From contig DWXO01000081.1 of assembly GCA_019119165.1 (NCBI GenBank), forward strand, positions 1 through 32,972: a DNA stretch of 32,972 nucleotides. The letters are read 5' to 3'. Below the pieces are notes generated by a model that did no database searches, was not told the origin of the DNA, and was given only the letters and a program-made list of their open reading frames with translations. Made by a program: the position numbers and the translations under genes. This DNA comes from Candidatus Flavonifractor intestinigallinarum (GTDB lineage: Bacteria; Bacillota; Clostridia; Oscillospirales; Oscillospiraceae). Shown here piece by piece: positions 1,231 through 21,608 of the stretch (its first letter is position 1; every line of letters begins with the position of its first letter).

Positions 1231-1307
1231 ATTCGGCCTATTTCAAGGTTTTGCTGCGCAAAACGCTTGACGCCGCATTTGCGGCGTTGGCAGGCAGCAG
1301 CCTCTAT
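1171..1307 (+). mobile_element. Structured gene-terminus insertion element, copy 1 (hisS 5' end)
   Basis: This insertion lies between the two copies of the hisS 5' end. It reads as a series of hairpins. Hairpin A is at 1172-1198 (GCGGGTC/GACCCGC inside CCCC/GGGG). Hairpin B is at 1215-1243, a perfect 12-bp stem with loop CTGAA. Hairpin C is at 1244-1269 (CAAG-GTTTTGC...GCAAAAC-G-CTTG) and hairpin D at 1270-1287. At 1289-1301 is a 13-base perfect reverse complement of hisS 1371-1383, which spans the inner boundary of the duplication. The same order of parts is found at 5769-5923 and 20416-20574. There is no open reading frame for a transposase, so any mobility would have to be supplied in trans. 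The family is not one I can name. Confidence 0.75.
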
Positions 1308-1329
1308 TACTCTACAAAGGAGCATTACT

Positions 1330-2679
1330 ATGGCCCAGATCAAACCCCGTACCCTGTCCGGTTTTATGGAGCTGCTGCCTGCCCGTCAGGTGCAGTTCGA
1401 CCGGATGGTGGACATCCTCCGCAAAAGCTATTCCCTCTACGGCTTCACCCCCCTGGACACCCCGGCCATCGAGGCCAGCGAGGTGCTGCTGGCCAAGGGC
1501 GGCGGCGAGACGGAGAAGCAGATCTACCGCTTCACCAAGGGGGACAGCGACCTGTCCCTCCGCTTTGACCTGACCGTCCCCCTGGCCAAGTATGTGGCCC
1601 TCCACCAGAACGAGCTTACCTTCCCCTTCCGCCGGTTCCAGATCGGCAAGGTGTACCGGGGTGAGCGGGCCCAGAAGGGCCGCTACCGGGAGTTCTATCA
1701 GGCCGACATCGACGTGATTGGCGACGGTTCCCTGGATATCACCAACGAGGCCGAGATTCCCTCCATCATCTACAAGACCTTTACCGCCCTGGGTCTGAAA
1801 CGCTTCAAGATTCGGGTGAACAACCGGAAGGTCCTCAACGGCCTCTTCGCCCTGCTGGGCCTGGAGGAGCAGGCCGGGGACGTGATGCGTACCATCGACA
1901 AGCTGGAGAAGATCGGCCCCGAGAAGGTGAAGGCCATCCTGACGGACGACTTTGCCGTGGCCGCCGACACCGCCGACACCCTGCTGGGCCTGCTGGCGGC
2001 TGAGGACCCCATGGCCGCTCTGGAGCCCTTCAAGGGCAAGAACGAGCTGTTCGACCTGGGTGTGTCCGAGCTGGAGACCGTGGTCAAGTATATGTCCGCC
2101 TACGGCGTGCCGGAGGACCACTTCATGGTGGACCTGACCATCGCCCGTGGCCTGGACTACTACACCGGCACCGTGTATGAGACCGTCATGCTGGACCACC
2201 CGGAGGTGGGCTCCATCTGCTCCGGCGGCCGGTACGACAACCTGGCGGAATATTACACCGACAAGCAGCTGCCCGGCGTGGGCATCTCCATCGGCCTGAC
2301 CCGGCTGTTCTCCGTGCTGGAGGCCCAGGGCTACCTGAACGAGGAGATGAACACCGCCCCCGCCGACGTGCTCATCCTGCCCATGACCGAGGACCTGTCC
2401 GCCGCCATCTCCTTCGCCACCGCCCTGCGGGACGCGGGGGTGCGGGCCCAGCTCCACTGCGAGAAGAAGAAATTCAAGCAGAAGCTGTCCTACGCCGACA
2501 AGCTGTCCATCCCCTACGCCGCCTTCCTGGGCGAGGATGAGATCGCTCAGGGCAAGGTGACGGTGAAGGACCTGACCTCCGGTGAGCAGCAGACCGTGAC
2601 CCCCGCTGAGGCGGTGGCCCTGGTCCAGGCCGGTCTGGCCGCCCGGTCCGGCGGCGCTCCCATCCGGGACAAGGACTGA
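1330..2679 (+). CDS. hisS: Histidine--tRNA ligase
   Basis: This class II aminoacyl-tRNA synthetase charges tRNA-His in the cytoplasm. The protein is 449 aa, slightly longer than the usual 420-430. Visible signatures are motif 2 around RGERAQKGRYREFYQADID, the histidine-binding ARGLDYYTGTVYE segment and the SGGRYDNL loop near motif 3. A C-terminal anticodon-binding domain begins near DVLILPM. The start is ATG 1330, with AAAGGAG at 1316-1322; a longer in-frame ORF from 1267 would begin inside the inserted element. The gene lies 290 bases downstream of the T-box terminator because an element and a duplicated 5' end have been inserted. The original start region is the orphan copy at 1123. The gene itself appears intact. 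Confidence 0.97.
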   Translation: MAQIKPRTLSGFMELLPARQVQFDRMVDILRKSYSLYGFTPLDTPAIEASEVLLAKGGGETEKQIYRFTKGDSDLSLRFDLTVPLAKYVALHQNELTFPFRRFQIGKVYRGERAQKGRYREFYQADIDVIGDGSLDITNEAEIPSIIYKTFTALGLKRFKIRVNNRKVLNGLFALLGLEEQAGDVMRTIDKLEKIGPEKVKAILTDDFAVAADTADTLLGLLAAEDPMAALEPFKGKNELFDLGVSELETVVKYMSAYGVPEDHFMVDLTIARGLDYYTGTVYETVMLDHPEVGSICSGGRYDNLAEYYTDKQLPGVGISIGLTRLFSVLEAQGYLNEEMNTAPADVLILPMTEDLSAAISFATALRDAGVRAQLHCEKKKFKQKLSYADKLSIPYAAFLGEDEIAQGKVTVKDLTSGEQQTVTPAEAVALVQAGLAARSGGAPIRDKD

Positions 2680-2712
2680 ATGGAACTTTCCCCCTCCCCC
2701 ATCGTCTATAGG

Positions 2713-2816
2713 AAAAAGACCTTCCCCCCTCAGGGGGGTCGGACTGTCCGGGGGACAGTCCGATCAAAGAAGGTCTTCCTTACCCCGTGGTGGCCCGTAG
2801 GGCCGGATGAGGGGAT
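2713..2816. repeat. Palindromic repeat interrupted by a second hairpin
   Basis: Bases from about 2722 carry the left arm of the window's common palindrome (CCTTCCCCCCTCAGGGGGG). Its usual right end (AAGGT, then GGCCC..AGGGCCGGATGAGGGG) appears only after about 30 inserted bases. The inserted bases form a perfect stem, TCGGACTGTCC/GGACAGTCCGA, at about 2740-2764. The flanks AAGACCTTC and GAAGGTCTT still pair around it. So one small hairpin appears to have gone into another. The stretch between hisS and the next gene contains nothing else I can identify. Confidence 0.6.
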
Positions 2817-2852
2817 CTGCCCCTTTTGGATCTAATTAGGAGGAATGTTTCC

Positions 2853-3782
2853 ATGAAAAAGCTTGCCGCTCTGATTCTGTCCGCCGCCCTGCTGGCGGGC
2901 TCCGCCGCCGCCATCTCCCCTGAGGAGGCCTTCCCCAAGGTTAACGAGTACCCCGGCTTCATTGATGTGGAGGCCGGTTCCTGGTACGAAGATCCCGCCC
3001 GCATCTGCGCCGAGGTGGGACTGATGCAGGGCACGGGCCACGCCTTTGCCCCCTACCAGATCCTCACCGTGGGCGAGGTGGCCACCATCGCCGCCCGCAT
3101 GAACGAGGCCATCACCGGGGACCCCATCCCCATGGCCACTCCCAAGCCCGGCGAGACCCTGCCCTGGTACTTCTCCTATGTAAAGTACCTGGAGGACCTG
3201 GGCATCGACGTGCCCGACCCGGAAAAACAGGCCACCCGTCAGGAGTTTGTGTCCATCCTGGCCGCCGTGGTGCCCGAGGATATGCTCGCCCCCATCAACA
3301 CCATCACCACCCTGCCCGACACCCAGGATGAGGCGGTGCTGCGCTTCTACAACGCGGGCATCCTCACCGGCGTGGACGACTGGGGCACCTTCGCCCCGGG
3401 CAACAGCCTGACCCGTGCCGAGACCGCCGCCATGGTGGCCCGTGTGGCCCGCACCGACCTGCGCCAGACCTTCACCCCGGCGGACTACACCCCCTTTACC
3501 GCCGCCGGGCTCAAGCCCTCCGACGTGCTGTTCACCAACGGCACCACCGCCGGGGCCTACCTGCCCTATGTGCAGGAGCTGATTGACGGCCTGGAGGCCG
3601 ACTGCGCCGCCCAGGGCATGGAGTTCAACTGGTTCAACACCGTGGACTCTGTCACCTTCCTGGACTACGTGAAGAACACCGCCCTCGCCCACTTCGGCGT
3701 CACCGCAAAGGATGGCACCCAGCTGTACAAGAACTTCGACGTGCAGGTGTACTACAGCCGGTATCTCGACCTGCGCACCTGA
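2853..3782 (+). CDS. Exported S-layer homology (SLH) domain protein
   Basis: The protein is 309 aa from ATG 2853, preceded by TAGGAGGAA at 2838-2846. Residues 1-20 (MKKLAALILSAALLAGSAAA) are a clear signal peptide. At least two SLH-like modules follow. One starts at FIDVEAGSWYEDPARICAEVGLMQGTG with TVGEVATIAARM. Another runs through FYNAGILTGVDDWGTFAPGNSLTRAETAAMVARV. SLH domains normally bind secondary cell-wall polymers, so this is probably a wall-associated surface protein. The C-terminal 100 residues have no motif I recognise. It sits between hisS and aspS and is flanked on both sides by palindromic repeats, so co-transcription with either synthetase gene is uncertain. Confidence 0.85.
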   Translation: MKKLAALILSAALLAGSAAAISPEEAFPKVNEYPGFIDVEAGSWYEDPARICAEVGLMQGTGHAFAPYQILTVGEVATIAARMNEAITGDPIPMATPKPGETLPWYFSYVKYLEDLGIDVPDPEKQATRQEFVSILAAVVPEDMLAPINTITTLPDTQDEAVLRFYNAGILTGVDDWGTFAPGNSLTRAETAAMVARVARTDLRQTFTPADYTPFTAAGLKPSDVLFTNGTTAGAYLPYVQELIDGLEADCAAQGMEFNWFNTVDSVTFLDYVKNTALAHFGVTAKDGTQLYKNFDVQVYYSRYLDLRT

Positions 3783-3783
3783 C

Positions 3784-3899
3784 CTTCCCCCCACAGGGGG
3801 GAAGGTGGCCCGCAGGGCCGGATGAGGGGATGCGGGACAACAAAGGCCCCCTCATCAGTCAGCCTGCGGCTGACAGCTTCCCCCCTAAGGGGGGAAGCT
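3784..3899. repeat. Two palindromic repeat units, head to head
   Basis: 3784-3825 is CCTTCCCCCC..GGGGGGAAGG followed by GGCCCGCAGGGCC and GATGAGGGG. 3850-3899 is the reverse form, CCCCTCATCAGTCAGCC..GGCTGACAGC followed by CTTCCCCCC..GGGGGGAAG. The same two unit types occur upstream of glyS. No T-run follows, so a terminator role is not evident. Confidence 0.75.
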
Positions 3900-3930
3900 A
3901 GTGCTATCTGCCCCTTCTTCTATTTCCCAT

Positions 3931-3958
3931 TTGTATTTTTATAATTATATATTACAAT
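3931..3958 (+). promoter_or_regulatory. AT-rich candidate promoter region of aspS
   Basis: The 3920-3958 stretch is far more AT-rich than its surroundings. It contains TATAAT at 3940-3945 and TTGTAT(16)TACAAT at 3931-3958. The second pair would place the start so close to ATG 3975 that the ribosome binding site (GGAG 3961-3964) would be excluded. TATAAT with a poor -35 is therefore the better candidate. Confidence 0.4.
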
Positions 3959-3974
3959 CTGGAGTTGATTTCAC

Positions 3975-5768
3975 ATGGCTAATGTCAAAACCGCCTACCG
4001 CACCCACACCTGTGGGGAGCTCCGCATGGAGCAGGTGGGCCAGACCGTCACCCTGGCGGGCTTCCTGGAGAACTTCCGTGAGGTGGGCGCCAGCCTGGGC
4101 TTCGCCGTCCTGCGGGATTTCTACGGCACCACCCAGGTGGTGGCCGAGACCGAGGAGATGGTCAAGACCATCAAGGCTCTGAACAAGGAGTCCACCATCG
4201 CCGTCACCGGCGTGGTGCGGGAGCGGGATTCCAAGAACCCCAAGCTGCCTACCGGCGACATCGAGGTGGTGCCCGAGAAGATCGAGGTGCTGGGCCGCTG
4301 CCGCCACAACGAGCTGCCCTTCCAGATCAACCGCAGCCGTGAGGCCGACGAGACTCAGCGGCTCAAGTACCGCTATCTGGACCTGCGCAACCCCGCCGTC
4401 AAGAACAACATCATCCTCCGCTCCCAGGTGGTGGCCGCCCTGCGGCAGGCCATGACCGCCCAGGGCTTTATGGAGATCACCACTCCCATCCTCACCGCTT
4501 CTTCTCCGGAAGGCGCAAGAGACTATTTGGTACCCAGTAGAAAACACCCCGGCAAGTTCTACGCCCTGCCTCAGGCTCCCCAGCAGTTCAAGCAGCTGCT
4601 GATGGCCTCCGGCTTCGACAAGTACTTCCAGATCGCCCCCTGCTTCCGGGACGAGGACGCCCGGGGCGACCGCTCCCCCGGCGAGTTCTACCAGCTGGAC
4701 ATGGAGATGGCCTTTGCCGGTCAGGAGGACGTGTTTGCCGTCCTGGAGCAGGTGCTCCCCCCCATCTTCGCCCAGTACGGCACCTACAACGTGGCCTCTG
4801 AGGCCCCCTTTAAGCGGATCTCCTACCTGGAGGCCATGGACAAGTACGGCTCCGACAAGCCCGACCTGCGGATCGACCTGACCGTCACCGACGCCACCGA
4901 GGTACTGGGTTCCTGCGGCTTCGGTCCCTTCGAGGGCAACACCGTCAAGGCCATCGTGGTGTCCGGCTTTGAGGGCACCCGCAAGCAGATCGACGGCATC
5001 TGCAACGAGGTGGAGGTCCAGTCGGGCAACAAGGCCTACTGGTTCCGCCTGGATGAGAAGGGTGAGATCGTGGGCGGCATCGCCAAGTTCGTCCAGCCCA
5101 TCAAGGACGCCGTGGTGTCCGCTCTGGGCCTGGAGCCCGGCTGCTTCGTGGGCCTCACCGCCGGCAAGCTGCTGACCGCTCAGAAAACCGCCGGTGTGCT
5201 CCGCTCCAAGCTGGGCGCTTTCTGCCCCAACCACATGGACAAGGAGCGCTATGAGTTCTGCTGGATCGTGGACTTCCCCATGTACGAGATCGGCGAGGAG
5301 TCCGGCGAGCTGGAGTTCTGCCACAACCCCTTCTCCATGCCCAACGGCGGCCTGGAGATCCTGAAGAAGGCGGCTGCCGGCGAGGTGGACCCCCTCAGCA
5401 TCACCGCCTTCCAGTACGATCTGGTGTGCAACGGCGTGGAGCTGTCCTCCGGCGCGGTGCGGAACCACGACCCCGAGATCATGATCGAGGCCTTCCAGCT
5501 GGTGCGGCTGGGCGAGGAGGACGTAAAGGCCAAGTTCCCCGCCATGTACAACGCCTTCACCTACGGCGCGCCCCCCCATGCGGGCATCGCCCCCGGCGTG
5601 GACCGTATGGTCATGCTGCTGGCCGGCGAGGACTCCATCCGTGAGATCATCCCCTTCCCCATGAACAAGAACGCCCAGGACCTGATGATGGGCGCTCCCT
5701 CTTTTGTCACCGACGCCCAGCTCAACGAGCTGAACATCGTGTGCACCAAAAAGGAAGAGGACGAGTAA
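3975..5768 (+). CDS. aspS: Aspartate--tRNA ligase
   Basis: This class II synthetase charges tRNA-Asp. The protein is 597 aa, normal for the bacterial type. In order, an N-terminal OB-fold anticodon domain (about residues 15-105) is followed by the catalytic domain with PEGARDYLVPSR and motif 2 FRDEDARGDRSPGEFYQLD. A GAD insertion domain lies at about residues 310-410. Motif 3 (APGVDRMVMLLAGEDSIREI) is near the C-terminus. The start ATG 3975 has GGAG 11 bases upstream. The last 26 codons are duplicated downstream (5924-6002) around an inserted element; the gene-attached copy differs from the orphan copy almost only at synonymous sites. Codons 173-191 (about 4491-4547) use AGA, TTG, GTA and AGT, which are rare elsewhere in the gene. 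The gene is intact. Confidence 0.97.
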   Translation: MANVKTAYRTHTCGELRMEQVGQTVTLAGFLENFREVGASLGFAVLRDFYGTTQVVAETEEMVKTIKALNKESTIAVTGVVRERDSKNPKLPTGDIEVVPEKIEVLGRCRHNELPFQINRSREADETQRLKYRYLDLRNPAVKNNIILRSQVVAALRQAMTAQGFMEITTPILTASSPEGARDYLVPSRKHPGKFYALPQAPQQFKQLLMASGFDKYFQIAPCFRDEDARGDRSPGEFYQLDMEMAFAGQEDVFAVLEQVLPPIFAQYGTYNVASEAPFKRISYLEAMDKYGSDKPDLRIDLTVTDATEVLGSCGFGPFEGNTVKAIVVSGFEGTRKQIDGICNEVEVQSGNKAYWFRLDEKGEIVGGIAKFVQPIKDAVVSALGLEPGCFVGLTAGKLLTAQKTAGVLRSKLGAFCPNHMDKERYEFCWIVDFPMYEIGEESGELEFCHNPFSMPNGGLEILKKAAAGEVDPLSITAFQYDLVCNGVELSSGAVRNHDPEIMIEAFQLVRLGEEDVKAKFPAMYNAFTYGAPPHAGIAPGVDRMVMLLAGEDSIREIIPFPMNKNAQDLMMGAPSFVTDAQLNELNIVCTKKEEDE

Positions 5769-5923
5769 AGCGCCCATCATCAGGGGCCCCGCACAGCGGG
5801 GCGCGCTTTGCGCGTACAAGCGTTTTCGCCTGTGGCGAAAACCTTGGCGCAGGCGGAATTCACTTCCGCCGAGCAAGTAAAATCATCCCTGGGTCCCCGG
5901 ACAACCCAGGCTGTCCGGGATCT
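5769..5923 (-). mobile_element. Structured gene-terminus insertion element, copy 2 (aspS 3' end)
   Basis: This starts directly after the aspS stop codon. 5769-5784 is a perfect 16-base reverse complement of aspS 5681-5696, which spans the start of the duplicated terminus. On the plus strand there follow hairpin E (5787-5801, CCCCGC/GCGGGG) and hairpin D (5801-5815, sharing one base with E). Hairpin C is at 5817-5846 (CAAG..CTTG with GTTTT/AAAAC). Hairpin B is at 5852-5870 (GGCGGAA/TTCCGCC, loop GTGAA on the minus strand). Hairpin A is at 5895-5919 (CCCGGACA/TGTCCGGG). The orphan copy of the aspS end begins at 5924. Order and loop motifs match copies 1 and 3. The element is read A to E on the minus strand, antisense to aspS, and encodes no protein. 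Confidence 0.75.
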
Positions 5924-6002
5924 GGGCGCTCCCTCCTTCGTCACCGACGCCCAGCTCAACGAGCTGAACATCGTGTGTACCAAGAAAGAGGACGAGGAAT
6001 AA
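5924..6002 (+). pseudogene. Orphan copy of the aspS 3' end
   Basis: Repeats aspS 5690-5768, from GGGCGCTCCC to the stop codon. The first 21 codons encode the identical peptide, with five synonymous differences (Ser, Phe, Cys, Lys, Lys codons). The tail is EDEE instead of EEDE. The orphan is followed by the aspS-type terminator at 6014, so it is probably the native end of the gene, displaced by the insertion. Confidence 0.8.
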
Positions 6003-6013
6003 GACAACAGAGA

Positions 6014-6053
6014 ACGGCTCCCATCGGATATGCTCCGATGGGGGCCGTTTTTG
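6014..6053 (+). terminator. Rho-independent terminator of the aspS locus
   Basis: ACGGCTCCCATCGGA and TCCGATGGGGGCCGT pair around TATGC and are followed by TTTTT. Confidence 0.85.
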
Positions 6054-6068
6054 ATGGAATCGATTTTG

Positions 6069-6122
6069 ACCACCCGCAGGGGCCGACACCCCAGGGTGGC
6101 CTCTCTTGCCCCTTTGGGGCAA
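6069..6122. repeat. Two short GC-rich hairpins before the minus-strand operon end
   Basis: CCACCC..GGGTGG encloses AGGGG..CACCCC at 6069-6099, and TGCCCC/GGGGCA pairs at 6108-6122. Neither is followed by a T-run on either strand. Confidence 0.35.
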
Positions 6123-6151
6123 TTCACCTTCTGCCCACATCGGCCCGCAGG

Positions 6152-7060
6152 TCATCCCCTGCCCAGCAGCTCCATGCCCACCTGGCGGCCCAGCTCCTCG
6201 GCCTGGGCGGTGACGGTGTCCACGATCTCATGGACGTAGTCGCAGTTGCCGCACAGGGAGGCCCAGCCCGGCAGCTTCCCCCCCAGCCCCGCCAGCAGCT
6301 CCCGCTCGGGGATGAGGCCCAGGGCGGTTATGAGGGTGTCGCAGGCCACCTGCTCCTCCTTGCCGCTGTCCAGATGGTGCAGCGTGACGCCGGTAAGCCG
6401 CCCCTCCCCGTGGAGCTGGGTGACGGTGGTCCGGGTCATCAGGGGAATGCGGTGCTCCAGCAGACAGGACCGGTAGTTGCGCACCATGCCGCCGCAGCTC
6501 CCCTTCTGCTCCACCACCCCCAGCACCTGGCAGCCCTCCAGCACGAACCGGCGGGCCATGATGAGGCCCAAATCCCCGCTGCCCAGCACCAGCACCTTTT
6601 TCCCCGGCCGCCAGTGGCGGAGGTTGATCATCCGCTGGGCCTCCCCGGCGGTAAATACACCGGCGGGGCGGGTACCGGCGACGGGGAGAGAACCGATGGT
6701 CTTTTCCCGGCAGCCGGTGGCCAGAATGAGCCGCCGGAAGGCCACCGGCTCATATCCGCCGGGGCCGGACAGCTCCGCCGTCCGCCGCTGGGACAGGGAG
6801 AGCACGGTGGTGTTGAGGCGCACGCTCACCGCCGCCCCCTCCATCTGGGCCACAATGCGAGCGGCGTACTCCGGCCCGGTGAGGTTGCGCTGGAAGTAGC
6901 CCAGGCCGAAGCCCTGGTGGATGCACTGGGGCAAAATGCCCCCCAGCCGCTCCTCCCGGTCCACCAGCAACACCGAAACCGGCCCCGCGCCCGCGGCGGC
7001 CAGGGCGGCGGACATCCCCGCCGCGCCGCCCCCCACCACCAACAGATCAACCTTCTCCAT
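6152..7060 (-). CDS. FAD-dependent pyridine nucleotide-type oxidoreductase
   Basis: 302 aa. The N-terminal Rossmann FAD motif is VVGGGAAGMSAALAAA (residues 8-23). A second dinucleotide-binding motif, VLVLGSGDLGLIMARRF, sits near the middle. An ATG (Ala-Thr-Gly) segment (LILATGCREKT) and a C-terminal TALGLIPERELL segment match the two-domain pyridine nucleotide-disulfide oxidoreductase fold. No CxxxxC redox disulfide is present in the active-site helix, so it is not a thioredoxin reductase. The start codon overlaps the end of the upstream oxidoreductase gene by 14 bases, which indicates translational coupling. Such pairs occur in anaerobes next to GlpA-like dehydrogenases and pass electrons between a substrate dehydrogenase and NAD(P)H. 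The substrate is unknown. Confidence 0.85.
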   Translation of the reverse strand: MEKVDLLVVGGGAAGMSAALAAAGAGPVSVLLVDREERLGGILPQCIHQGFGLGYFQRNLTGPEYAARIVAQMEGAAVSVRLNTTVLSLSQRRTAELSGPGGYEPVAFRRLILATGCREKTIGSLPVAGTRPAGVFTAGEAQRMINLRHWRPGKKVLVLGSGDLGLIMARRFVLEGCQVLGVVEQKGSCGGMVRNYRSCLLEHRIPLMTRTTVTQLHGEGRLTGVTLHHLDSGKEEQVACDTLITALGLIPERELLAGLGGKLPGWASLCGNCDYVHEIVDTVTAQAEELGRQVGMELLGRG

Positions 7061-8498: not shown

Positions 8499-8527
8499 GG
8501 AAGGTCCTCCTCTCTTGATCGGCCCGC

Positions 8528-8557
8528 TATCTCCTATCTTCTATCTTCTAACTCCTC
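8528..8557. repeat. Pyrimidine-rich TATCTCCTATCTTCTATC repeat, copy 2
   Basis: The gap between two genes holds TATCTCCTATCTTCTATC followed by TTCTAACTCC. The same string, with minor changes, occurs at 1070-1104 between the T-box terminator and the orphan hisS start. It consists of a degenerate TATCTYC unit repeated three or four times. No role is visible. Confidence 0.5.
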
Positions 8558-8558
8558 A

Positions 8559-13324: not shown

Positions 13325-13327
13325 GCC

Positions 13328-15130: not shown

Positions 15131-15134
15131 GCCC

Positions 15135-15416
15135 ATGACGGTCAAATTCTTTGCCTATCTGCGGGAAAAGGAGTTTGCCGGGACCAAGGAGCTGGTCCTC
15201 CCCCCGCCCCCCACCGTGGGGGCGCTGGGGGAGGACCTGTCCCGGCGTTTTGGCCCCCGGTTCCGGGGGGAGTTCTTCTCCCCCGCCGGGGACGCACTGG
15301 GGGAGAAAATCATCGTGCTGGTCAACGGCCGCCGGGTGGAGTTCCTCTCCGGCCTGGACACCCCGCTGAAAGACAGCGACACGGTGCAGATCTTCCCGGT
15401 GGTGGCCGGGGGCTGA
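15135..15416 (+). CDS. MoaD/ThiS-family sulfur carrier protein
   Basis: 93 aa, beta-grasp fold. It begins MTVKFFAYLREKEFAGTKEL and ends VQIFPVVAGG, with the C-terminal Gly-Gly that is adenylated and thiocarboxylated in molybdopterin synthase. Genes of this type are regular companions of AOR genes. It probably supplies dithiolene sulfur for the tungstopterin, or is a dedicated variant. It starts four bases after the AOR stop codon. No MoaE or MoeB partner is in the window. Confidence 0.9.
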   Translation: MTVKFFAYLREKEFAGTKELVLPPPPTVGALGEDLSRRFGPRFRGEFFSPAGDALGEKIIVLVNGRRVEFLSGLDTPLKDSDTVQIFPVVAGG

Positions 15417-15460
15417 GCCCCCGCTCCCCCGCCAAACCCAACAAAGGCGGTGAAACCCAT

Positions 15461-15937
15461 ATGGATATCCCCATGGAGGACATTCAGACCATCTTACAGG
15501 CCTATCCCCCGGAGCAGCGGTTCAGCCTGGCCATGCTCCAGGATATGCAGCACAAGTTCAACTACATCCCCCGGGCGGGCATGGAGGCCCTGGCGGCCTA
15601 CCTGGGCTGTCCCCTGTCCTCCCTGTACGCCATGGCCACCTTCTACAAGGCCCTGAGCCTCAAGCCCAAGGGCAGGCACATCATCAAGCTGTGCGACGGC
15701 ACCGCCTGCCACATCCGGGGCTCCACCACCCTGCTGGACGGGGTGCGGCGGCTGCTGGGCATTAACGCCGGGGAGACCTCGGAGGACGGGCTCTTCTCCC
15801 TGGAGCTGGTGAACTGCCTGGGCTCCTGCGCTCTGGCCCCGGTGATGGTGGTGGACGGCACCTACTACGGGCGGGTGACCCTGGAGAAGCTGCCCAAAAT
15901 TCTGGACCAGTACCGGGAGGTGGAAGGCCATGAATAA
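15461..15937 (+). CDS. NuoE-like NAD-module subunit, thioredoxin-like [2Fe-2S] protein
   Basis: 158 aa. The N-terminal helical part (RFSLAMLQDMQHKFNYIPRAGMEALAAYLG) and the thioredoxin-like part are typical of the 24-kDa subunit. The [2Fe-2S] ligands are in CDGTACHIRG (C-x4-C) and CLGSC (C-x3-C). The family pairs with the flavoprotein NuoF/HndC/HydB and assists NAD(H) reactions in bifurcating hydrogenases and dehydrogenases. The next gene starts inside its end (8-base overlap, 15930-15937), which fits a fixed stoichiometry. Co-occurrence with AOR suggests an aldehyde:NAD/ferredoxin complex. Confidence 0.93.
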   Translation: MDIPMEDIQTILQAYPPEQRFSLAMLQDMQHKFNYIPRAGMEALAAYLGCPLSSLYAMATFYKALSLKPKGRHIIKLCDGTACHIRGSTTLLDGVRRLLGINAGETSEDGLFSLELVNCLGSCALAPVMVVDGTYYGRVTLEKLPKILDQYREVEGHE

Positions 15938-17723
15938 AACGGTATTGGTGTGCTGCGGCACCGGCTGCCTGGCCAACGGCAGCGCCAAGGTGGCCGAGGC
16001 CTTCCGCACTCTGCTGGCGGGCACCGGCCATCAGGTGGAGTGTTTCGTCAAGGAGACCGGCTGCCAGGGGTTCTGCGAAAACGGCCCCATGGTGCGGATA
16101 CTCCCCGACGACATCACCTACTACAAAGTCAAGCCCGCCGACGCCGCCGAGATCGTGGCCCAGACGGTGGAACAGGGCCTGCCCGTCACCCGGCTGCTGG
16201 CCAAAAACGACGCCGGCCAGCCGGTCACCCGCCGGGAGGACAATCCCTTCTTCGCCCCCCAGGTGAAGGTGGCCCTGCGGAACGTGGGCATCATCTCCCC
16301 CGCCAGCGTTGAAGATTATGTCAACCGAGGCGGATACAGCGCCCTGAAAAAGGCCCTGACCATGACCCCCGACGAGATCATCACCCAAGTGGAGCTGTCC
16401 GGCCTCCGGGGCCGGGGCGGCGCGGGCTTCCCCACCGGCCGGAAGTGGCGCACCGCCGCCGGGTATGACAACTTCCCCAAGTATGTGGTGTGCAACGGCG
16501 ACGAGGGCGACCCCGGCGCCTTCATGGACGGCTCCATTCTGGAGGGGGACCCCCACAGTGTGCTGGAGGGCATGGCCATCTGCGCCCTGGCCATCGGGGC
16601 GGAGACCGGCTTCCTCTACATCCGGGACGAGTACGCCCTGGCGGTGGCCCACATCCGGGAGGCCATCGCCAACGCCGAGGCGGCGGGCATTTTAGGTGAT
16701 CACATTTTGGGATCTGACAAGAAATTAAAACTCTCCGTTGTCAGGGGCGGCGGCGCTTTCGTGTGCGGCGAGTCCACGGCGCTGATGGCGTCGGTGGCCG
16801 GCCGGGTGGGCGAACCCCGGGCCAAGTACATCCGCTCGGTGCAGCGGGGCCTGTGGGACCAGCCCACGGTGCTCAACAACGTGGAGACCTTCGCCAACAT
16901 TTCGGTGATTTTGGACCGGGGCGGGGCGGAATTTGCCAAGCTGGGCACCGAGGGGTCCAAGGGAACCAAGGTGTTCTCCATGGTGGGCAAGGTGAAGCGC
17001 ACCGGCCTGGTGGAGGTACCCATGGGGGCCACCCTCCGCCACCTGATCTTCGACATCGGCGGCGGCATCCAGGGGGATCGCCCCTTCAAGGCGGTGCAGA
17101 CCGGCGGCCCCTCCGGCGGGTGCATCCCCGAGGAACTGCTGGACCTGCCGGTGGACTTCGACACCCTGAAAAGCCACGGGGCCATGATGGGCTCCGGCGG
17201 CATGATCGTCATGGACGACCGCAGCTGCATGGTGGAGGTGGCCCGGTATTATGTAAAGTTCCTCTCGGAGGAGTCCTGCGGCAAGTGTACCCCCTGCCGG
17301 GAGGGTTTGAGGCACATTCTGACCATCCTCACCGACATCTGTCAGGGCAAGGGGCAGCTCAGCGACCTGGACCTGCTGGAGGAGCTGTGCCACACCCTGG
17401 CGGACAGCTCCCTGTGCGCCCTGGGCAAGTCGGCTCCCAACCCGGTGCTCACCACTCTGAAGTATTTCCGGCAGGAGTACGAGGCCCACATTCTGGAGCA
17501 CCGCTGTCCGGCGGGGGTGTGTACCGCCCTCACCAGCTTTGCCATTGACCCGGACAAGTGTGTGGGCTGCGGGGCCTGTAGCCGGGCCTGCCCCGCCGGG
17601 GCCATCTCCGGCGGCGTGAAGGAGCCCCATGTCATTGATCCCGCCCGGTGCATCGCCTGCGGCTCCTGCCGGGAGGCCTGCAAGTTCGGCGCGGTGGAGA
17701 CGAAAGGCAAGGTGGCGGGATGA
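15930..17723 (+). CDS. NuoF-like NADH-binding flavoprotein with extra iron-sulfur domains
   Basis: 597 aa. Domains in order are an N-terminal thioredoxin-like [2Fe-2S] domain (VCCGTGC..., CQGFC; residues about 1-95) and the FMN/NADH-binding core (GRGGAGFPTGRKW, GDEGDPGAFMDGS). An SLBB domain and the [4Fe-4S] helical domain (SCGKCTPCREG with a later Cys) follow. The C-terminus is a 2x[4Fe-4S] ferredoxin domain (CVGCGACSRACP, CIACGSCREAC). This layout matches HydB/HndC/BfuB-type flavoproteins, in which bifurcation of electrons between NAD and ferredoxin has been described. Whether this enzyme bifurcates is inference. A short stretch near 16690-16740 has unusually AT-rich codons (TTA, GGT, GAT, ATT, AAA) with no loss of frame. 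Confidence 0.94.
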   Translation: MNKTVLVCCGTGCLANGSAKVAEAFRTLLAGTGHQVECFVKETGCQGFCENGPMVRILPDDITYYKVKPADAAEIVAQTVEQGLPVTRLLAKNDAGQPVTRREDNPFFAPQVKVALRNVGIISPASVEDYVNRGGYSALKKALTMTPDEIITQVELSGLRGRGGAGFPTGRKWRTAAGYDNFPKYVVCNGDEGDPGAFMDGSILEGDPHSVLEGMAICALAIGAETGFLYIRDEYALAVAHIREAIANAEAAGILGDHILGSDKKLKLSVVRGGGAFVCGESTALMASVAGRVGEPRAKYIRSVQRGLWDQPTVLNNVETFANISVILDRGGAEFAKLGTEGSKGTKVFSMVGKVKRTGLVEVPMGATLRHLIFDIGGGIQGDRPFKAVQTGGPSGGCIPEELLDLPVDFDTLKSHGAMMGSGGMIVMDDRSCMVEVARYYVKFLSEESCGKCTPCREGLRHILTILTDICQGKGQLSDLDLLEELCHTLADSSLCALGKSAPNPVLTTLKYFRQEYEAHILEHRCPAGVCTALTSFAIDPDKCVGCGACSRACPAGAISGGVKEPHVIDPARCIACGSCREACKFGAVETKGKVAG

Positions 17724-18463
17724 TCATTACCATTGACGGAAAGCAGTGCAGCTGTGAGAAGGGGGAATTTCTCCTCCAGGTGGCCCGGCGCAACGGCATC
17801 TACATCCCTACCCTGTGCCACCACGAGGCCCTGCCTGGGCAGGGCTGCTGCCGGGTGTGTATTGTGGAGGTAGACGAGGGCAAGGGCCCCAAGATCGTGG
17901 TGTCCTGCGTCTACCCGGTGGAGCGGGAATGTACCGTATCCACCGACAGCGACAAGGTCCGCAGTCAGCGGGGGATGATTCTGTCCCTCCTCTACAAGCG
18001 GGCCCCGGACAGCGAACTGATTGCCCAGATGTGTACCCACTACGGCGCGCCCCCGCTGGAGCGCCTCAAGCCGGTGGACAGCGGAAAGTGCATCCTGTGC
18101 GGGCTGTGTACCCGGGCCTGCGCCGAGCTGAGCGTGGGGGCCATCTCCACCGTCAACCGGGGGGTCACCAAGGAGGTGGCCACCCCCTACCACGACGAGA
18201 GCCCGGTGTGCGTGGGCTGCGGCTCCTGCGCCAGCGTGTGCCCCACCGACGCCATCCCCCTTACCGAGACGGCGGATACCCGCACCATCTGGGGCAAAAC
18301 CTTCCGCCTGGTGCGGTGTGCCCATTGCGGCGCGGTCATCGGCACGGCGGAGGAGCTGGCCCTGGCCGCCCAAAAGACGGGCGAGGAGCCGGAGAAGCTG
18401 TGTGAGCGCTGCCGGAAGGCCGCCCTGGCCCAGGTGCTGGCCCACACCTACGGGGACCAATAA
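17720..18463 (+). CDS. NuoG N-terminal-like iron-sulfur subunit
   Basis: 247 aa. Start ATG 17720 overlaps the preceding stop by four bases (ATGA); a longer frame from 17648 lies inside the flavoprotein gene. The N-terminal plant-type [2Fe-2S] domain has CHHEALPGQGCCRVC and a further Cys in VVSCVYP. A NuoG-type segment follows, then two [4Fe-4S] motifs: CILCGLCTRAC and CVGCGSCASVCP. The C-terminus has CAHCG and CERC pairs, resembling a small zinc ribbon or another cluster site. It lacks the molybdopterin or H-cluster domain of NuoG or hydrogenase, so it is a pure electron-transfer subunit. It is the last gene of the operon, followed by a strong terminator. Confidence 0.9.
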   Translation: MIITIDGKQCSCEKGEFLLQVARRNGIYIPTLCHHEALPGQGCCRVCIVEVDEGKGPKIVVSCVYPVERECTVSTDSDKVRSQRGMILSLLYKRAPDSELIAQMCTHYGAPPLERLKPVDSGKCILCGLCTRACAELSVGAISTVNRGVTKEVATPYHDESPVCVGCGSCASVCPTDAIPLTETADTRTIWGKTFRLVRCAHCGAVIGTAEELALAAQKTGEEPEKLCERCRKAALAQVLAHTYGDQ

Positions 18464-18471
18464 CAGAACGA

Positions 18472-18507
18472 AAAAGCCCGGCGCGTCATGTGACGCGCCG
18501 GGCTTTT
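18472..18507. terminator. Bidirectional terminator between the AOR operon and the M23 peptidase gene
   Basis: AAAAGCCCGGCGCGTCA pairs with TGACGCGCCGGGCTTTT around TG. A-runs and T-runs on both sides let it serve both converging transcripts. Confidence 0.92.
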
Positions 18508-18522
18508 GTATGCTTGATACTC

Positions 18523-20010
18523 TTACCCCAGGTAGGCCAGGGGGTTGACGGCGGTGCCGTTGATCTGCACCTCAAAGTGGCAGTGGTTGCCGGTGGACCG
18601 GCCGGTGGAACCTACGCGGGCAATGGGCTGGCCCTGGTACACCTTGTCGCCGGTGGAGACCAGCAGGCTGGAACAGTGGGCGTACAGGGTACGCACGCCG
18701 TTGCCGTGGTCGATAACCACATAGTTGCCGTAGCTCCAGTAGCTGCCGGTACCGGTGCCCGACCACACCACGGTGCCGCCGTCGGAGGCCTTGATGGTGG
18801 TGCCGTAGGAGGTAGCGATATCCAGACCGCTGTGGTAGCTGTAGGAGCCGAAGATGGAGCGGTAGCCAAAGCTGGAGGTGATGTTGCCGTACACCGGCCA
18901 GATGTAGGTGCCGGTGGGCAGCCAGGAGGGCCGCACCTTGGTGCCTACGGCGATGACCTTGTTGGTGGCCTCACGGGTGACCTCGGTGGAGAGCACCGTG
19001 CGCTCCTGCTCCACGCCGTTGAGGTAGGCCACGTCGGCGGTGACCACCTGCTCGCCGGGGGTACCGGCGTCCAGCACCCTGGACTCGCCCTGATACATGG
19101 AGTCGTCCTCCACTTCCACCACGGGGCAGGCAATCTCCTCGGTGTAGGTCACATGGTCCACGGTCTTGACGGACAGGAAGGGGATCTCTTCCTTAACATT
19201 GACGATCTGGCCGATGTAGATGCGGCTGCTGTCCACATCGGGGTTGAGGGCCTCCAGCTCGGACAGGGTCATGCCGTTGGCCACGGCGATGTCCACAAAG
19301 GTATCGCCCTGCTGCACCTCATAGGTGGTCTGGCCGTTCTGGTTGGCGGTGAGGGCGGCCAGCATGGCGTCGGTGTCCTGGTTGACGTCGGAGGCAGTGT
19401 ACTCATGGGTGATGTACACGCCGGAGGTGAACTCGGCGGAGATGGTGTTCTCGTTGACATAGGGGGCCTTCACCTGCTCCAGCACCGCGTTGAGGGTCTC
19501 CTGGTCCTGGGCGGCGCCGATGAACTGGCTGTTGACGGTGAGCACATAGTTCTTCATCACGTCGCCGATCTGATCAAAGAGGTAGGTCTCAAACTCGGCG
19601 GTGGGGGTGATGTTCTCCGGCTCGGTGAGGGCGAAGGAGTAGGAAATCTCTCCGTCCAGGGTGTAGTCGTAGCCCAGGATCTTGGTCGCCCGGGCCTCCA
19701 CCCGATCCACCGCGTCCTCAAAGACCTGGGGAGAGGTGACGGTGCCCAGAGCCACGCCGTTCATCTCCACCACATAGGCGGGGGTGTAAACGGAGGTGAC
19801 CACCGCGGCCACGCCCACAACAGCGGCTACAGCCAGGAAGTGGAACGGGCTGACGATGCGGCAGCCGCCGGCGGTGGCGGCATCGGACCAGTGCTGGAAC
19901 CGCACGACGCCGGCACGCAGAGCGGTGCTGGCAGCCTGGGCTTTGGCCCGCAGCCGGGCGGGCAGGCTCTCAGTCTCCCGTTCCTGTGGAATATGAAGGA
20001 TCTCGTCCAT
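18523..20010 (-). CDS. M23 family cell-wall peptidase with LysM and G5 domains
   Basis: 495 aa. There is a cytoplasmic N-terminus, then one transmembrane or signal-anchor segment at about residues 56-78 (FHFLAVAAVVGVAAVVTSV). A LysM domain (YEVQQGDTFVDIAVANGMTL...IYIGQIVNV) lies at about 228-272. A G5 domain spans about 275-355 and the C-terminal M23 (LytM) domain follows. Zinc ligands are visible in YHSGLDIA (H-x3-D) and NHCHFEV (H-x-H). The enzyme would bind peptidoglycan and cut peptide cross-links outside the membrane, in growth or sporulation. ATG 20010 is preceded by AGGAGGGGA. It has its own promoter and a 100-base leader with short direct repeats. Confidence 0.93.
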   Translation of the reverse strand: MDEILHIPQERETESLPARLRAKAQAASTALRAGVVRFQHWSDAATAGGCRIVSPFHFLAVAAVVGVAAVVTSVYTPAYVVEMNGVALGTVTSPQVFEDAVDRVEARATKILGYDYTLDGEISYSFALTEPENITPTAEFETYLFDQIGDVMKNYVLTVNSQFIGAAQDQETLNAVLEQVKAPYVNENTISAEFTSGVYITHEYTASDVNQDTDAMLAALTANQNGQTTYEVQQGDTFVDIAVANGMTLSELEALNPDVDSSRIYIGQIVNVKEEIPFLSVKTVDHVTYTEEIACPVVEVEDDSMYQGESRVLDAGTPGEQVVTADVAYLNGVEQERTVLSTEVTREATNKVIAVGTKVRPSWLPTGTYIWPVYGNITSSFGYRSIFGSYSYHSGLDIATSYGTTIKASDGGTVVWSGTGTGSYWSYGNYVVIDHGNGVRTLYAHCSSLLVSTGDKVYQGQPIARVGSTGRSTGNHCHFEVQINGTAVNPLAYLG

Positions 20011-20049
20011 GGGGAGATTCCCCTCCTATATCATGGAATATCAATCAGT

Positions 20050-20110
20050 CTGTATCCGGTCTGTATCCGATCGGTAACAGCCGGAAACGAAAAGGTTACA
20101 AATGGTTACA
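20050..20110 (-). promoter_or_regulatory. Direct repeats in the leader of the M23 peptidase gene
   Basis: Two pairs of direct repeats lie between promoter and gene. CTGTATCCG occurs at 20050-20058 and 20060-20068. GTTACA occurs at 20095-20100 and 20105-20110, reading as two TGTAAC boxes with a 4-base gap on the minus strand. They may be operator sites; the regulator is not known. Confidence 0.35.
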
Positions 20111-20116
20111 GTTGTA

Positions 20117-20145
20117 ATCATACACGCATTTTGGTAAAAAGTCAA
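20117..20145 (-). promoter_or_regulatory. Sigma-A promoter of the M23 peptidase gene
   Basis: On the minus strand, TTGACT (20145-20140) and TATGAT (20122-20117) are separated by 17 bases. Confidence 0.8.
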
Positions 20146-20230
20146 GGCTTTCCGGAAAAAGTAAACGTTTTTTCTCTCAGTAAAGAAAGAAATTTTCATG
20201 CCACAACATCTGGTAGCCCATGGGAAAAAG

Positions 20231-20275
20231 GGACCGCCCCACCCCCAAGACCGGTGGTCCGGGGGCGGACGGTCC
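20231..20275. other. Long GC-rich inverted repeat
   Basis: GGACCG and CGGTCC at the ends enclose C-rich and G-rich arms that can pair. There is no T-run, so it is not an obvious terminator. The rest of 20146-20322 shows nothing I can assign. Confidence 0.35.
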
Positions 20276-20322
20276 ACAAAATATTTCGTCACATCGCCGG
20301 ATGGGCATTGCCATATTACGAC

Positions 20323-20415
20323 AAAAAACCGGAGCGCCCATAAGAGCGCTCCGGTTTGATGTACCTTTTACCTTTTTGTTACGCCAGGGCCGCGGTGATG
20401 ATGGCCATAGAGTAG
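20323..20415 (-). pseudogene. Orphan copy of the pta 3' end and its terminator
   Basis: Repeats 20575-20661. On the minus strand it encodes YSMAIITAALA and the stop (TTA at 20379-20381), followed by the pta terminator hairpin. One coding difference is seen and it is synonymous (TCT for TCC). The terminator stem differs by a compensating pair (GGAGCG/CGCTCC here, GGAGCA/TGCTCC at the gene). A 7-base extra segment lies before the hairpin. It is probably the native end of pta, displaced by the insertion. Confidence 0.8.
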
Positions 20416-20574
20416 GCCCCACAGGCCCAAGGCCTGCGGGGACCCCAATTTTGATATCTGCTCGGGGCAAATGAATTGCCCCGGCATCAAGGTTTTGTGC
20501 CCTTGGCACAAAACGCTTGGCGGCCCAGGCGCCGGTCCCGCCATGGGCGGGTCGGAGGTCTCCTCCATGGCCAT
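20416..20574 (+). mobile_element. Structured gene-terminus insertion element, copy 3 (pta 3' end)
   Basis: On the plus strand: hairpin A at 20417-20441 (CCCC-A-CAGGCC/GGCCTG-C-GGGG) and hairpin B at 20462-20484 (CGGGGCAA/TTGCCCCG, loop ATGAA). Hairpin C is at 20488-20519 (CAAG-GTTTTGTGCC...GGCACAAAAC-G-CTTG). A GGCG/CGCC stem follows, and hairpin E pairs CCCGCC with GGCGGG. Bases 20554-20574 are the reverse complement of 20647-20667 in pta with one mismatch in 21, spanning the inner boundary of the duplicated terminus. Order and motifs match copies 1 and 2. It is antisense to pta and non-coding. Confidence 0.75.
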
Positions 20575-20608
20575 AAAAAGACCGGAGCACCCCTGAGAGT
20601 GCTCCGGT
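20575..20608 (-). terminator. Terminator of pta (gene-attached copy)
   Basis: On the minus strand, ACCGGAGCACTCTC and GGGTGCTCCGGT form the hairpin and five T follow. It is part of the duplicated terminus, so the insertion left the gene with a complete terminator. Confidence 0.85.
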
Positions 20609-20624
20609 TTGATGTACCTTTTTG

Positions 20625-21608
20625 TTACGCCAGGGCCGCGGTGATGATGGCCATGGAGTAGACCTCCTGGGCGTTGCAGCCGCGGGACAGGTCGTTGATG
20701 GGGGCGTTGAGGCCCAGCAGCACGGGGCCGTAGGCGTCAAAGCCGCCCAGACGCTGGGCAATCTTGTAGCCGATGTTGCCGGCGTTGATGTTGGGGAAAA
20801 TAAAGGTGTTGGCGTAGCCGGCCACAGGGGAGCCGGGGCACTTGAGCTGGCCCACCTTGGGGGACACGGCGGCGTCGAACTGGAGCTCGCCGTCCACGGC
20901 GAAGTCGGGGTTGGTGGCCAGCACCTTCTCATAGGCGTGGCGCATCTTGTCCACGGTGTCGCCCTTGCCGGAGCCCTTGGTGGAGTAGCTCAGCATGGCC
21001 ACCTTGGGGTCGATGCCGAAGGTGCGGGCACAGTGGGCCACCTCGGTGGTGATCTCCACCAGCTCGTCCTCGGTGGGGTCGATGTTGATGGCGCAGTCGC
21101 CCATGGCCAACACGGTGTTCCCGCCCACGCCCTCACGGACCAGGATAAAGCAGGAGGACACGATCTTGTTGCCGGGCTTGGTCTTGATCAGCTGCAGGGC
21201 GGGACGGACGGTGTCGGCGGTGGAATAGGTGGCGCCGCCCAGCAGGCAGTCGGCCACGCCCACCTTCACCAGCATGGTGCCGAAGTAGTTGCCCTTCTGC
21301 AGGGCGGCACGGCACTCGTCGGCGGTCATCTTGCCCTTACGCAGCTCCACCATGGCCTCCACCAGCTTGTCCATCTCGGGGTAGGTCTTGGGATCAATGA
21401 TCTCGGCGCCCCGGATGTTGTAGCCGGCCTCCTCAGCGGCGGCCTTGACCTCCTCCTCGTTGCCGATGAGCACGGGAGTCAGGAAGGTACCGGCCAGCAG
21501 ACGGGCGCTGGCCTCCAGGATGCGGGGGTCGGTGCCCTCGGTGAACACGATGCGCTTGGGGCTCTTTTTCAGGGTATCGATCAGGGTCTGGAACATATGA
21601 ATAGCCAT
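20625..21608 (-). CDS. pta: Phosphate acetyltransferase
   Basis: 327 aa from ATG 21608 (GGAGGAG upstream); the longer ORF from 21689 adds a non-conserved N-terminus that overlaps the promoter. The enzyme interconverts acetyl-CoA and acetyl phosphate in the cytoplasm, for ATP formation through acetate kinase. Family segments are RIVFTEGTDPRILEASARLL near the N-terminus, EVAHCARTFGIDPKVAMLSYSTKGSG and LQFDAAVSPKVG. The C-terminal part has FIFPNINAGNIGYKIAQRLGG and GPVLLGLNAPINDLSRGC. Length and signatures are those of the short class I Pta. No ackA is in the window. The 3' end is duplicated beyond an inserted element. Some phosphotransbutyrylases are related, but the C-terminal motifs fit Pta. 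Confidence 0.95.
   Translation of the reverse strand: MAIHMFQTLIDTLKKSPKRIVFTEGTDPRILEASARLLAGTFLTPVLIGNEEEVKAAAEEAGYNIRGAEIIDPKTYPEMDKLVEAMVELRKGKMTADECRAALQKGNYFGTMLVKVGVADCLLGGATYSTADTVRPALQLIKTKPGNKIVSSCFILVREGVGGNTVLAMGDCAINIDPTEDELVEITTEVAHCARTFGIDPKVAMLSYSTKGSGKGDTVDKMRHAYEKVLATNPDFAVDGELQFDAAVSPKVGQLKCPGSPVAGYANTFIFPNINAGNIGYKIAQRLGGFDAYGPVLLGLNAPINDLSRGCNAQEVYSMAIITAALA

Follow-up and report, generated by a model that had tools for sequence, protein, structure and literature searches.

Group I introns and IStrons lie in conserved genes with patchy occupancy and carry a guide ordered 5'-(3' exon complement)(5' exon complement)-3', and the OMEGA RNAs (IscB/TnpB) and IS110 bridge RNAs are structured RNAs whose insertion-site guide is a direct flank or a fixed loop, the protein being encoded in cis. 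In the description available for IS608, the target is chosen in single-stranded DNA by DNA-DNA pairing with a guide 5' of a hairpin; this natural guide is a fixed 4 nt, tnpA is encoded by the element, and engineered versions reach 12/17-nt targets (PMC5934647). In the account given in PMC2817692, the IS200/IS605 family does not make a larger duplication, and REP/BIMEs are high-copy, small, palindromic noncoding elements tied to a transposase, RAYT (TnpA_REP), whose genes are said to be flanked by their REPs in every case. In ODIRA-type template switching, the inverted arms at which fold-back occurs are reported to be separated mostly by 40-80 bp (PMC10766183).

We analysed a window of 32,972 nt, the whole stretch of DNA considered here (Candidatus Flavonifractor intestinigallinarum, GCA_019119165.1, DWXO01000081.1, positions 1 to 32,972), which holds three members of an element family, at hisS, aspS, and pta (table 1). 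None of the described families that we tested fits these elements. IS608 differs in that the arm found here is 11-25 nt long, varies between sites, and is accompanied by a long duplication, whereas no protein is encoded. In place of the fixed short target tetranucleotide and fixed guide of IS200/IS605 elements, the target logo is weak (at most 0.46 bits at every position, 42 representative sites), and in place of their lack of a larger target-site duplication, or of the short constant one of MITEs, 77 of the 125 elements with enough flank lie between direct repeats of 28-164 nt (these 77 are hereafter the elements with a detached copy). The arm has the same guide order as the internal guide sequence of a group I intron (P1/P10), but the profiled core is only about 100 nt and a cmscan of the window up to E 5 gave no Rfam intron match, with just sub-threshold sraL matches over the pta element; moreover, at gene starts the element is antisense and splicing would not restore the gene. 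Splicing is not needed by the element because the gene end is duplicated. Searches of the open-licence literature with broad terms met no description of such elements, which is weak evidence of absence, and the arms of these inserts look like a means, hitherto undescribed, by which a mobile element recognises its site.

Anatomy and distribution of the element family

The elements are noncoding and made of several hairpins, the core and a hairpin termed E together spanning about 140 nt, and 24 of the 38 pairs of the core structure show covariation. Their insertion sites are the ends of conserved genes, and their hosts are gut bacteria. A typical member is found close to a gene end, flanked on either side by the terminus of that gene (B...T, mostly 30-125 nt), in the order gene with a/B...T (the attached copy), arm g (the reverse complement of a/B), hairpin core, and B...T again (the detached copy), the slash marking the inner boundary of the duplication. 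Elements located at gene starts are oriented opposite to the gene, with the same architecture on the other strand. The family was found in all 20 genus genomes searched, that of the window included, and tandem units occur at 29 of 257 loci, which are partly redundant. A recent-looking copy on a viral contig terminates a terminase gene and has an arm matching at 19/19 bases.

Table 1. Positions of the three elements, their arms, and the duplicated gene termini within the window.
Feature	Positions	Strand	Observation
hisS start region, detached copy (outer repeat)	1107..1177	+	98% vs gene-attached copy over 64 bases; direct repeat 69-71 nt
hisS element: hairpin E (~1178-1215) and hairpin core (profile match 1279-1220)	1178..1288	-	profile HMM 37.7 bits
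hisS element, inverted arm g	1289..1301	-	13/13 to 1371-1383; loop 69 nt; co-varies with hisS across species
hisS 5' region, gene-attached copy (ribosome-binding site, start codon, first codons)	1309..1377	+	direct repeat
hisS target segment a/B, paired by g	1371..1383	+	13/13 match to g
aspS target segment a/B (boundary 5688/5689)	5681..5696	+	16/16 match to g
aspS 3' end, gene-attached copy including stop codon	5689..5768	+	direct repeat 80 nt, 90%
aspS element, inverted arm g	5769..5784	+	16/16; loop 72 nt
aspS element: hairpin core (profile match 5787-5883) and hairpin E	5785..5922	+	89.2 bits; covarying structure
aspS 3' end, detached copy	5923..6002	+	direct repeat 80 nt
pta 3' end and terminator, detached copy	20325..20418	-	direct repeat of attached copy
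pta element: hairpin core (profile match 20545-20454) and hairpin E	20419..20553	-	54.9 bits
pta element, inverted arm g	20554..20574	-	20/21; loop 72 nt; co-varies across species
pta 3' end with intrinsic terminator, gene-attached copy	20576..20664	-	direct repeat 89-96 nt, 85%
pta target segment a/B	20647..20667	-	20/21 match to g

Occupancy is patchy: the orthologous site is occupied in 8 of 16 genus genomes at hisS and 7 of 14 at pta (own genome included in both), and 26 of the 44 alleles at aspS, pta, and hisS are empty. The aspS element has relatives at the same site with 99% (G004) and 94% (G002) identity. Differences between attached and detached copies are mainly synonymous (147 vs 46 codons), and the final 24 nt of the aspS detached copy equal the empty allele of G005, the attached copy differing there; both observations are expected if element and gene end arrive together.

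The inverted arm and its loop

The original prediction held that each of the three elements contains the reverse complement of its own target boundary. The three matches proved exact as described (aspS 16/16, pta 20/21, hisS 13/13), each straddles the inner edge of the duplication, and the inverted repeat does differ from site to site. The same holds elsewhere in the genome, which has at least 21 copies: an arm specific to its site and 11 nt or longer was present in each of the ten examined. Among the 77 elements with a detached copy, the local match score of g to its own boundary reached 18 or more in 67 and 24 or more in 54, against 5.3% and 0.9% of pairings when targets were swapped between elements, and 3.9% and 0.7% when the windows were displaced upstream by 60 or 120 nt within that gene. 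When the duplication was ignored, a stem score of at least 22 was obtained for 77 of 121 elements versus 2.1% for dinucleotide-shuffled upstream sequence. A clear arm is missing in 10 of the 77; in an enlarged set, 133 of 236 elements have a stem of at least 22 and 168 of at least 18, the 103 below 22 including 10 of 11 checked members of a tRNA-/terminator-adjacent subfamily, and these counts imply that a sizeable minority of elements has no clear arm.

Pairing with g extends across the boundary, mostly from -3..-9 to +5..+21, and the template of g was therefore uninterrupted target; the a/B sequence matched by g is contiguous only there or in the attached copy. Among the orthologous alleles of aspS, pta, and hisS, all 18 that are occupied (the window's three included) carry the arm, against none of the 26 that are empty.

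The arm had also been placed no more than 8 bases from the distal end of the attached copy, which is accurate for the three window sites and fails as a rule: at infB (L058, L076), the recognisable repeat stops at 46 nt and the arm starts at 78. The near-constant feature is a loop of about 70 nt between target and g, rather than this distance. The loop measures 66-75 nt at 44 of 74 distinct sites (p ~5e-36 vs a uniform 180-nt range; 38 of 60 after merging homologous genes), with a minor class of 29-39 nt at 8 of 74, and it varies less than the duplication length. Nine longer loops (76-101 nt) were found, and seven of them contain a terminator-like hairpin, which in one case (L360) lies inside coding sequence; put otherwise, loops exceed 75 nt at 7 of 9 sites with such a hairpin versus 2 of 59 without (p 1.3e-6). 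The presence of a hairpin inside most long loops suggests that it is probably a single strand that is measured, with an imperfect terminator correction, as pta sites measure 70-72 nt with the hairpin included and two long loops have none. This fixed single-strand loop length is supported as what a fold-back step would leave.

In cross-species comparisons, g follows the changes of its own gene at 309 of 405 variable positions (111 of 168 when collapsed), a count that uses only stems of at least 18 in both partners and thereby favours agreement, and tracking is not the majority in 8 of 24 sites. At pta and hisS, the junction between T and g stays the same by eye while g and gene change together. 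Such joint change indicates that complementarity is maintained after the founding insertion and that g is no mere fossil. Imperfect stems contain no excess of wobble pairs (11 vs 12), hence no sign of selection on RNA pairing.

These data bear on two alternatives. In the first, g is the scar of a fold-back or template switch with no later role, its match being kept by block transfer, in which gene end and element pass together between strains, and by correction between the arms on folding of the strand. The fixed loop and the terminator effect concern how g is made and not its function, wobble enrichment is absent, the synonymous divergence of the two copies suggests block transfer, and yeast template switching likewise favours inverted repeats 40-80 bp apart in the data reported (PMC10766183). 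Block transfer alone, however, does not make g follow the gene, and the collapsed tracking would require active correction. We know of no precedent for such correction over a 70-nt loop with arms of ~12-20 bp, and we regard a pure scar as unlikely, if still a serious competitor. The second alternative, that the stem acts in messenger RNA, or as a terminator or decay barrier, and is kept for gene expression, is very improbable in our view: the stem is maintained, often lies just past the stop codon or encloses the start region, and core hairpins are stable, but gene ends and, on the other strand, gene starts share one architecture, the site is often empty at the three loci, G-U pairs are not in excess, and the stem also occurs at the viral terminase gene. 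Junctions between T and g that lie 1-12 nt past terminator stems (17 in one doubtful case) had separately suggested an mRNA 3' end; this was rejected on the shared anatomy of the antisense gene-start sites.

Candidate mobilising proteins

Reverse transcriptases, Y1/RAYT transposases, IscB, and IS110 were considered as partners and set aside, as none was detected in every copy-rich genome. RRXRR (IscB) gave no match in 12 genomes, the control genomes being silent too. The DEDD transposase expected with an IS110 bridge RNA was present in 9 of 12 genomes and was not detected in the copy-rich G013, G030, and G044.

RVT_1 was found in 13 of 39 genomes, with none in the copy-rich G006 (99% complete) and G030 (98%) and none in the genome of the window itself (G000; 86%); supply in trans by a phage or plasmid is possible. 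This distribution speaks against RNA-guided retrotransposition, in which an RNA 5'-g-core-3' would pair with the a/B strand, the nicked other strand would prime reverse transcription from the 3' end of the element, and a second nick about 75 nt away would yield the duplication. The geometry fits, since the 3' end of the core joins B exactly where g covers the site, and the long duplications and the structured core with a 5' guide-like arm are also in its favour. The model leaves the origin of g at a new site unexplained, though, the loop is steadier than the duplication length, and the wobble signal is absent; we consider it improbable.

The family shares with REP/BIMEs its high copy number, small size, and palindromic, noncoding nature, and to our knowledge no REP has a site-specific inverted arm or a terminus duplication. 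If it were a similar element moved by a Y1 (HUH) transposase, the hairpin of a/B with g would be just another end hairpin. The all-hairpin anatomy is in agreement with this, as is a comparison of eight same-genus genomes given as 99% complete: RAYT-like matches occur in the copy-rich G006, G013, G015, and G017 (29-53 copies), and none in G002, G014, and G018 (8-17). The pattern is broken by two copy-rich genomes, G004 (99%, 29 copies), with an IS200-like match only, and G030 (98%, at least 53 copies), with none; more generally, in several copy-rich genomes the search revealed neither Y1 nor RAYT-like genes, and the RAYT cut-off was not reached by any match. Furthermore, no core was found at the six RAYT-like loci fetched among 41 listed, one of the six being from a genus without cores, in contrast to a cognate transposase flanked by its repeat. 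RAYT was rejected as partner on these loci and on G030 and G004, and a REP/BIME-like origin seems equally, or slightly more, improbable than retrotransposition.

Proposed founding insertion and same-site pairing

The original prediction had offered g either as a guide renewed at each insertion or as the trace of a snap-back or template-switch step. Its absence from empty alleles at three loci, its site specificity, and the fixed loop of ~70 or ~35 nt agree with this proposal, whereas renewal during a recent jump was not seen and bodies are faithful to their sites. Putative guide and putative snap-back are probably two stages of one story. Our preferred reading, a tentative one to which we give slightly less than even weight, has two steps: single-strand fold-back at the founding insertion makes g as a copy of target sequence, and g is subsequently retained as an arm that can base-pair with this site. 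In the first step, a single-stranded stretch of target would fold its free end back at a fixed length and copy a/B. By comparison of lengths only, the ruler might be about one SSB tetramer, whose modes occlude about 35 or 65 nt. Fold-back would leave g beside the incoming core and duplicate B...T, so that the gene end stays intact. ODIRA relies on pre-existing inverted repeats, whereas the tested empty alleles have none.

Less firmly, the retained g may direct homing-like re-insertion by locating its site in empty alleles, or produce tandem arrays when acting in cis, perhaps in the manner of the IS608 DNA guide, but over 11-25 nt. The occupied allele keeps an intact a/B, however, and a cutting guide would therefore attack its own host site, which counts against the proposal. 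The fuller scenario of protein-free, single-stranded-DNA-guided homing elements, with a self-written 11-25-nt guide made by a 70- or 35-nt fold-back and the gene spared by end duplication, not splicing, is doubtful, although worth entertaining. If it were true, a mobile element would record its own address at each founding insertion, in a guide readable directly from the genome, the 70/35-nt loop would be a quantitative trace of a single-strand step, and duplicated gene termini, otherwise noise-like, would be explained. It would also make the family a naturally reprogrammable small insertion system of common gut bacteria, harmless to the gene, one that reprogrammes itself and parallels in nature the IS608 versions engineered for extended target pairing. 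Even if the arms were fossils, they would form a large natural record of bacterial fold-back synthesis.

Comparison of body identities showed no recent jump of an arm-bearing body to a new site with a renewed arm, the top identity between different sites being 0.876 for arm-bearing, site-assigned elements. Three pairs are more similar: L114/L125 (0.951; different flanks, different genomes), L108/L109 (0.984), and L017/L032 (0.967), the last two each within one genome and with partly similar flanks. Since, among their scorable members, L114, L108, and L017 have no stem of at least 18 and L125 has a marginal one (loop 126), these pairs are uninformative on arm renewal. For 83 of 125 bodies the most similar body occupies the same site, compared with a shuffled mean of 3.3 of 162, and such fidelity, together with patchy occupancy, would fit homing-like behaviour, as far as sequence comparison can tell. 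Among the 23 copies of one complete genome, a replication-strand bias appears weak by eye.

Arms complementary to the target boundary

In the direction of the element, all three loci of the window (aspS, pta, and hisS) show the same order: gene interior, gene-attached copy of the duplicated terminus, arm, hairpin core, variable hairpin E, and second copy of the terminus. The aspS and pta elements lie at the 3' end of their gene, in the same direction as it; the hisS element lies at the 5' end, in the opposite direction, and there the duplication takes in the ribosome-binding site and start. Gene identities were backed by Pfam (class II [D, K, N] tRNA synthetase, histidyl tRNA synthetase, and phosphate acetyl/butyryl transferase). 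The original prediction, that each element carries the reverse complement of its own target boundary, proved exact at 16/16 (aspS), 20/21 (pta), and 13/13 (hisS) bases, and it extended to other members in this genome, an arm of 11–21 nt being present in 10/10 copies examined (those at aspS, hisS, pta, infB, fusA, and uvrC, at a phosphoglycerate-mutase-like gene, and at three further places; several of these gene names are our own reading of the sequence).

The arm is a real, family-wide feature. Among 129 distinct elements, 125 had enough flank and 77 of these had a clear detached copy; the sequence preceding the core, compared in reverse complement with its own boundary, scored at least 18 in 67/77 and at least 24 in 54/77, and swapping targets lowered these rates to 5.3% and 0.9%, respectively. 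In a wider set, stems scored at least 18 in 168/236 and at least 22 in 133/236, and some copies are therefore without a clear arm. The arm covers both sides of the boundary, mostly from −3 to −9 and +5 to +21, bases that adjoin one another only where the target is uninterrupted or in the attached copy.

Orthologous alleles were occupied in 3/14 cases at aspS, 7/14 at pta, and 8/16 at hisS (the window's own included; one aspS empty allele, L151, is from another family of the order). The inverted repeat had been expected to be absent from empty sites, and indeed the arm was found in 18/18 occupied and 0/26 empty alleles, with scores of 21–32 and 9–14, respectively. By eye, one pta end counted as empty (L166, genome G005) has a different, unrelated insert after the stop codon, and this gene end has thus been hit repeatedly.

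Co-change of arm and gene, and the fixed loop

Across species, the hisS gene reads GGGCAGGCAGCAGC, GGGCGGGCAGCAGC, or GCGCGGGCAGCAGC, and the arm alters in step, while by eye the junction between terminus and arm stays recognizably unchanged. At 24 sites, we followed positions that differ between two species and fall in a stem that one of them defines: in 309/405 comparisons the arm of the other species matched its own gene, in 65 it retained the base of the first, and in 31 it was otherwise unpaired (111, 39, and 18 of 168 after collapsing), a count biased toward agreement by the stem score of at least 18 required in both partners. Tracking fell short of a majority at 8/24 sites. In imperfect stems, G-U changes were not in excess over A-C (11 vs. 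12), so that pairing in RNA is not indicated.

The loop, that is, the distance between the two arms, was measured independently of the duplication at 74 distinct sites with a stem score of at least 22. It spanned 66–75 nt in 44 sites (mode 69), 29–39 in 8, 40–65 in 7, and 76–112 in 9, with 6 outside these ranges; merging homologous-gene sites reduced the 68 sites at 25–112 nt to 60 clusters, 38 of them at 66–75 nt. Loops in shuffled controls were broadly scattered. Loops above 75 nt occurred in 7/9 cases with a terminator-like hairpin inside versus 2/59 without (P = 1.3e-6), although in one of the seven (L360) the hairpin lies within coding sequence, and pta is an exception, with a terminator present yet a loop of 70–72 nt. 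Most simply, the arm would have been made while a foldable single strand was kept at a constant length. Bacterial SSB has two modes, which occlude about 35 and about 65 nt, respectively (PMC3168475); this similarity of lengths is no more than suggestive.

Site fidelity and possible routes of insertion

The nearest core came from the same site at another locus in 83/125 cases, against an average of 3.3/162 with shuffled labels. Core identity between different assigned sites reached at most 87.6%; three core pairs at unassigned places were 95–98% identical, and their scorable members were without the usual arm. In 56 elements, attached and detached terminus copies differed mainly at synonymous positions (147 vs. 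46 codons; a script set the reading frames, perhaps wrongly at some antisense sites), despite the detached copy being untranslated. At aspS, the detached copy ends in 24 nt identical to the empty allele of another species, from which the attached copy differs. Both observations fit an element that arrived together with the donor's gene end, leaving the recipient's own end behind.

What the sequences show is the duplicated terminus, the arm, its loop of fixed length, its absence from empty alleles, its co-change with the gene, and site fidelity. At the founding insertion, a single strand probably folded back, the arm being copied from the target. The arm might then be reused, in cis or on an empty allele, to locate that site again. 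Against a guide that cuts, the main argument is the intact boundary that persists in the occupied allele; this would be avoided if insertion were single-stranded, without double-strand cutting, as in IS608, engineered versions of which reach 12/17-nt targets via added DNA–DNA pairing (PMC5934647).

No mobilizing protein was found in the genomes searched. Reverse transcriptase (RVT_1) was not detected in the window's own genome (G000), G006, or G030, nor IS110 in three copy-rich genomes; RRXRR (IscB) was found in 0/12 genomes, where the control was likewise silent. Several copy-rich genomes have many Y1 transposases and RAYT-like genes, which were not detected in others, and none of 6 RAYT-like genes inspected (of 41 listed) had an adjoining core. 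The G-run/C-run palindromes of the window, by eye a separate family, could be the substrate of RAYT-like genes.

Distribution of the family and neighboring features

As a DNA query, the aspS core matched 21/40 genomes, including all 20 searched from the window's genus (its own included). A covariance model built on 26 diverse cores was positive in 25/60 genomes (five outside the genus and 20/20 within it). The window's genome has at least 21 copies, and several genomes have 49 to at least 53. In a pattern scan, 70/80 named-genome loci among the matches listed fitted the core profile; hosts among these matches include Flavonifractor plautii, Pseudoflavonifractor, and Intestinimonas, scores being weaker (25–27 bits) in Oscillibacter and Dysosmobacter, and 9/10 listed loci without a profile match came from unrelated groups. 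The core is strongly structured: in 24/38 consensus pairs, both bases vary with pairing preserved. It exists in two body forms, one with an additional first hairpin, the other with the arm immediately before the second hairpin; tandem units occur at 29/257 partly overlapping loci. Rfam returned only sub-threshold matches over the window's elements, at the pta terminator. We found no description of such elements in a broad search of the open-licence literature, and no known family clearly passed the membership test applied to it.

Among viral contigs matching the pattern, 6/30 contained the core profile. One copy, at the end of a terminase gene, has a 95-nt repeat with two mismatches, an arm of 19/19, and a loop of 84 nt; the process therefore also reaches phage DNA. 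Four other viral contigs examined showed no clear arm (stems of only 16–20). A tRNA- or terminator-adjacent subfamily (L114, L125, L108, L017, L045, L053, L060, L071, L022, L023, and L043) includes several members in which hairpin E is of the GGGTGGAGCCGCCC type or a terminator hairpin lies downstream; 10/11 had no inverted arm scoring at least 18, and L125 has a marginal arm with a loop of 126.

Other features in the window and in compared sequences
Feature	Location	Remarks
T-box leader	window 807-1015	upstream of hisS; Rfam, below cut-off
T-box leader	window 30619-30825	upstream of a glycyl-tRNA synthetase-looking gene; Rfam, above cut-off
G-run/C-run palindromes	window 2727-2790, 3783-3900, 30560-31110	CTTCCCCCC..GGGGGGAAG; REP-like look, by eye
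lepA-type element	window 24346-24459	lepA 3' end; GGCATAGCCG..CGGCCTACGC..TTAACGCTGCG; different element, short terminus duplication
Second pta (L179)	G000:C86:81750-82017	same assembly, 88% identical; paralogue or bin contamination
RAYT-like transposase gene	L136 1441-2019	between smc- and ftsY-looking genes, apparently one operon

By eye, a site-specific inverted arm was not evident in the lepA-type element. At infB in locus L006, an element of this type follows one of the arm-bearing family.
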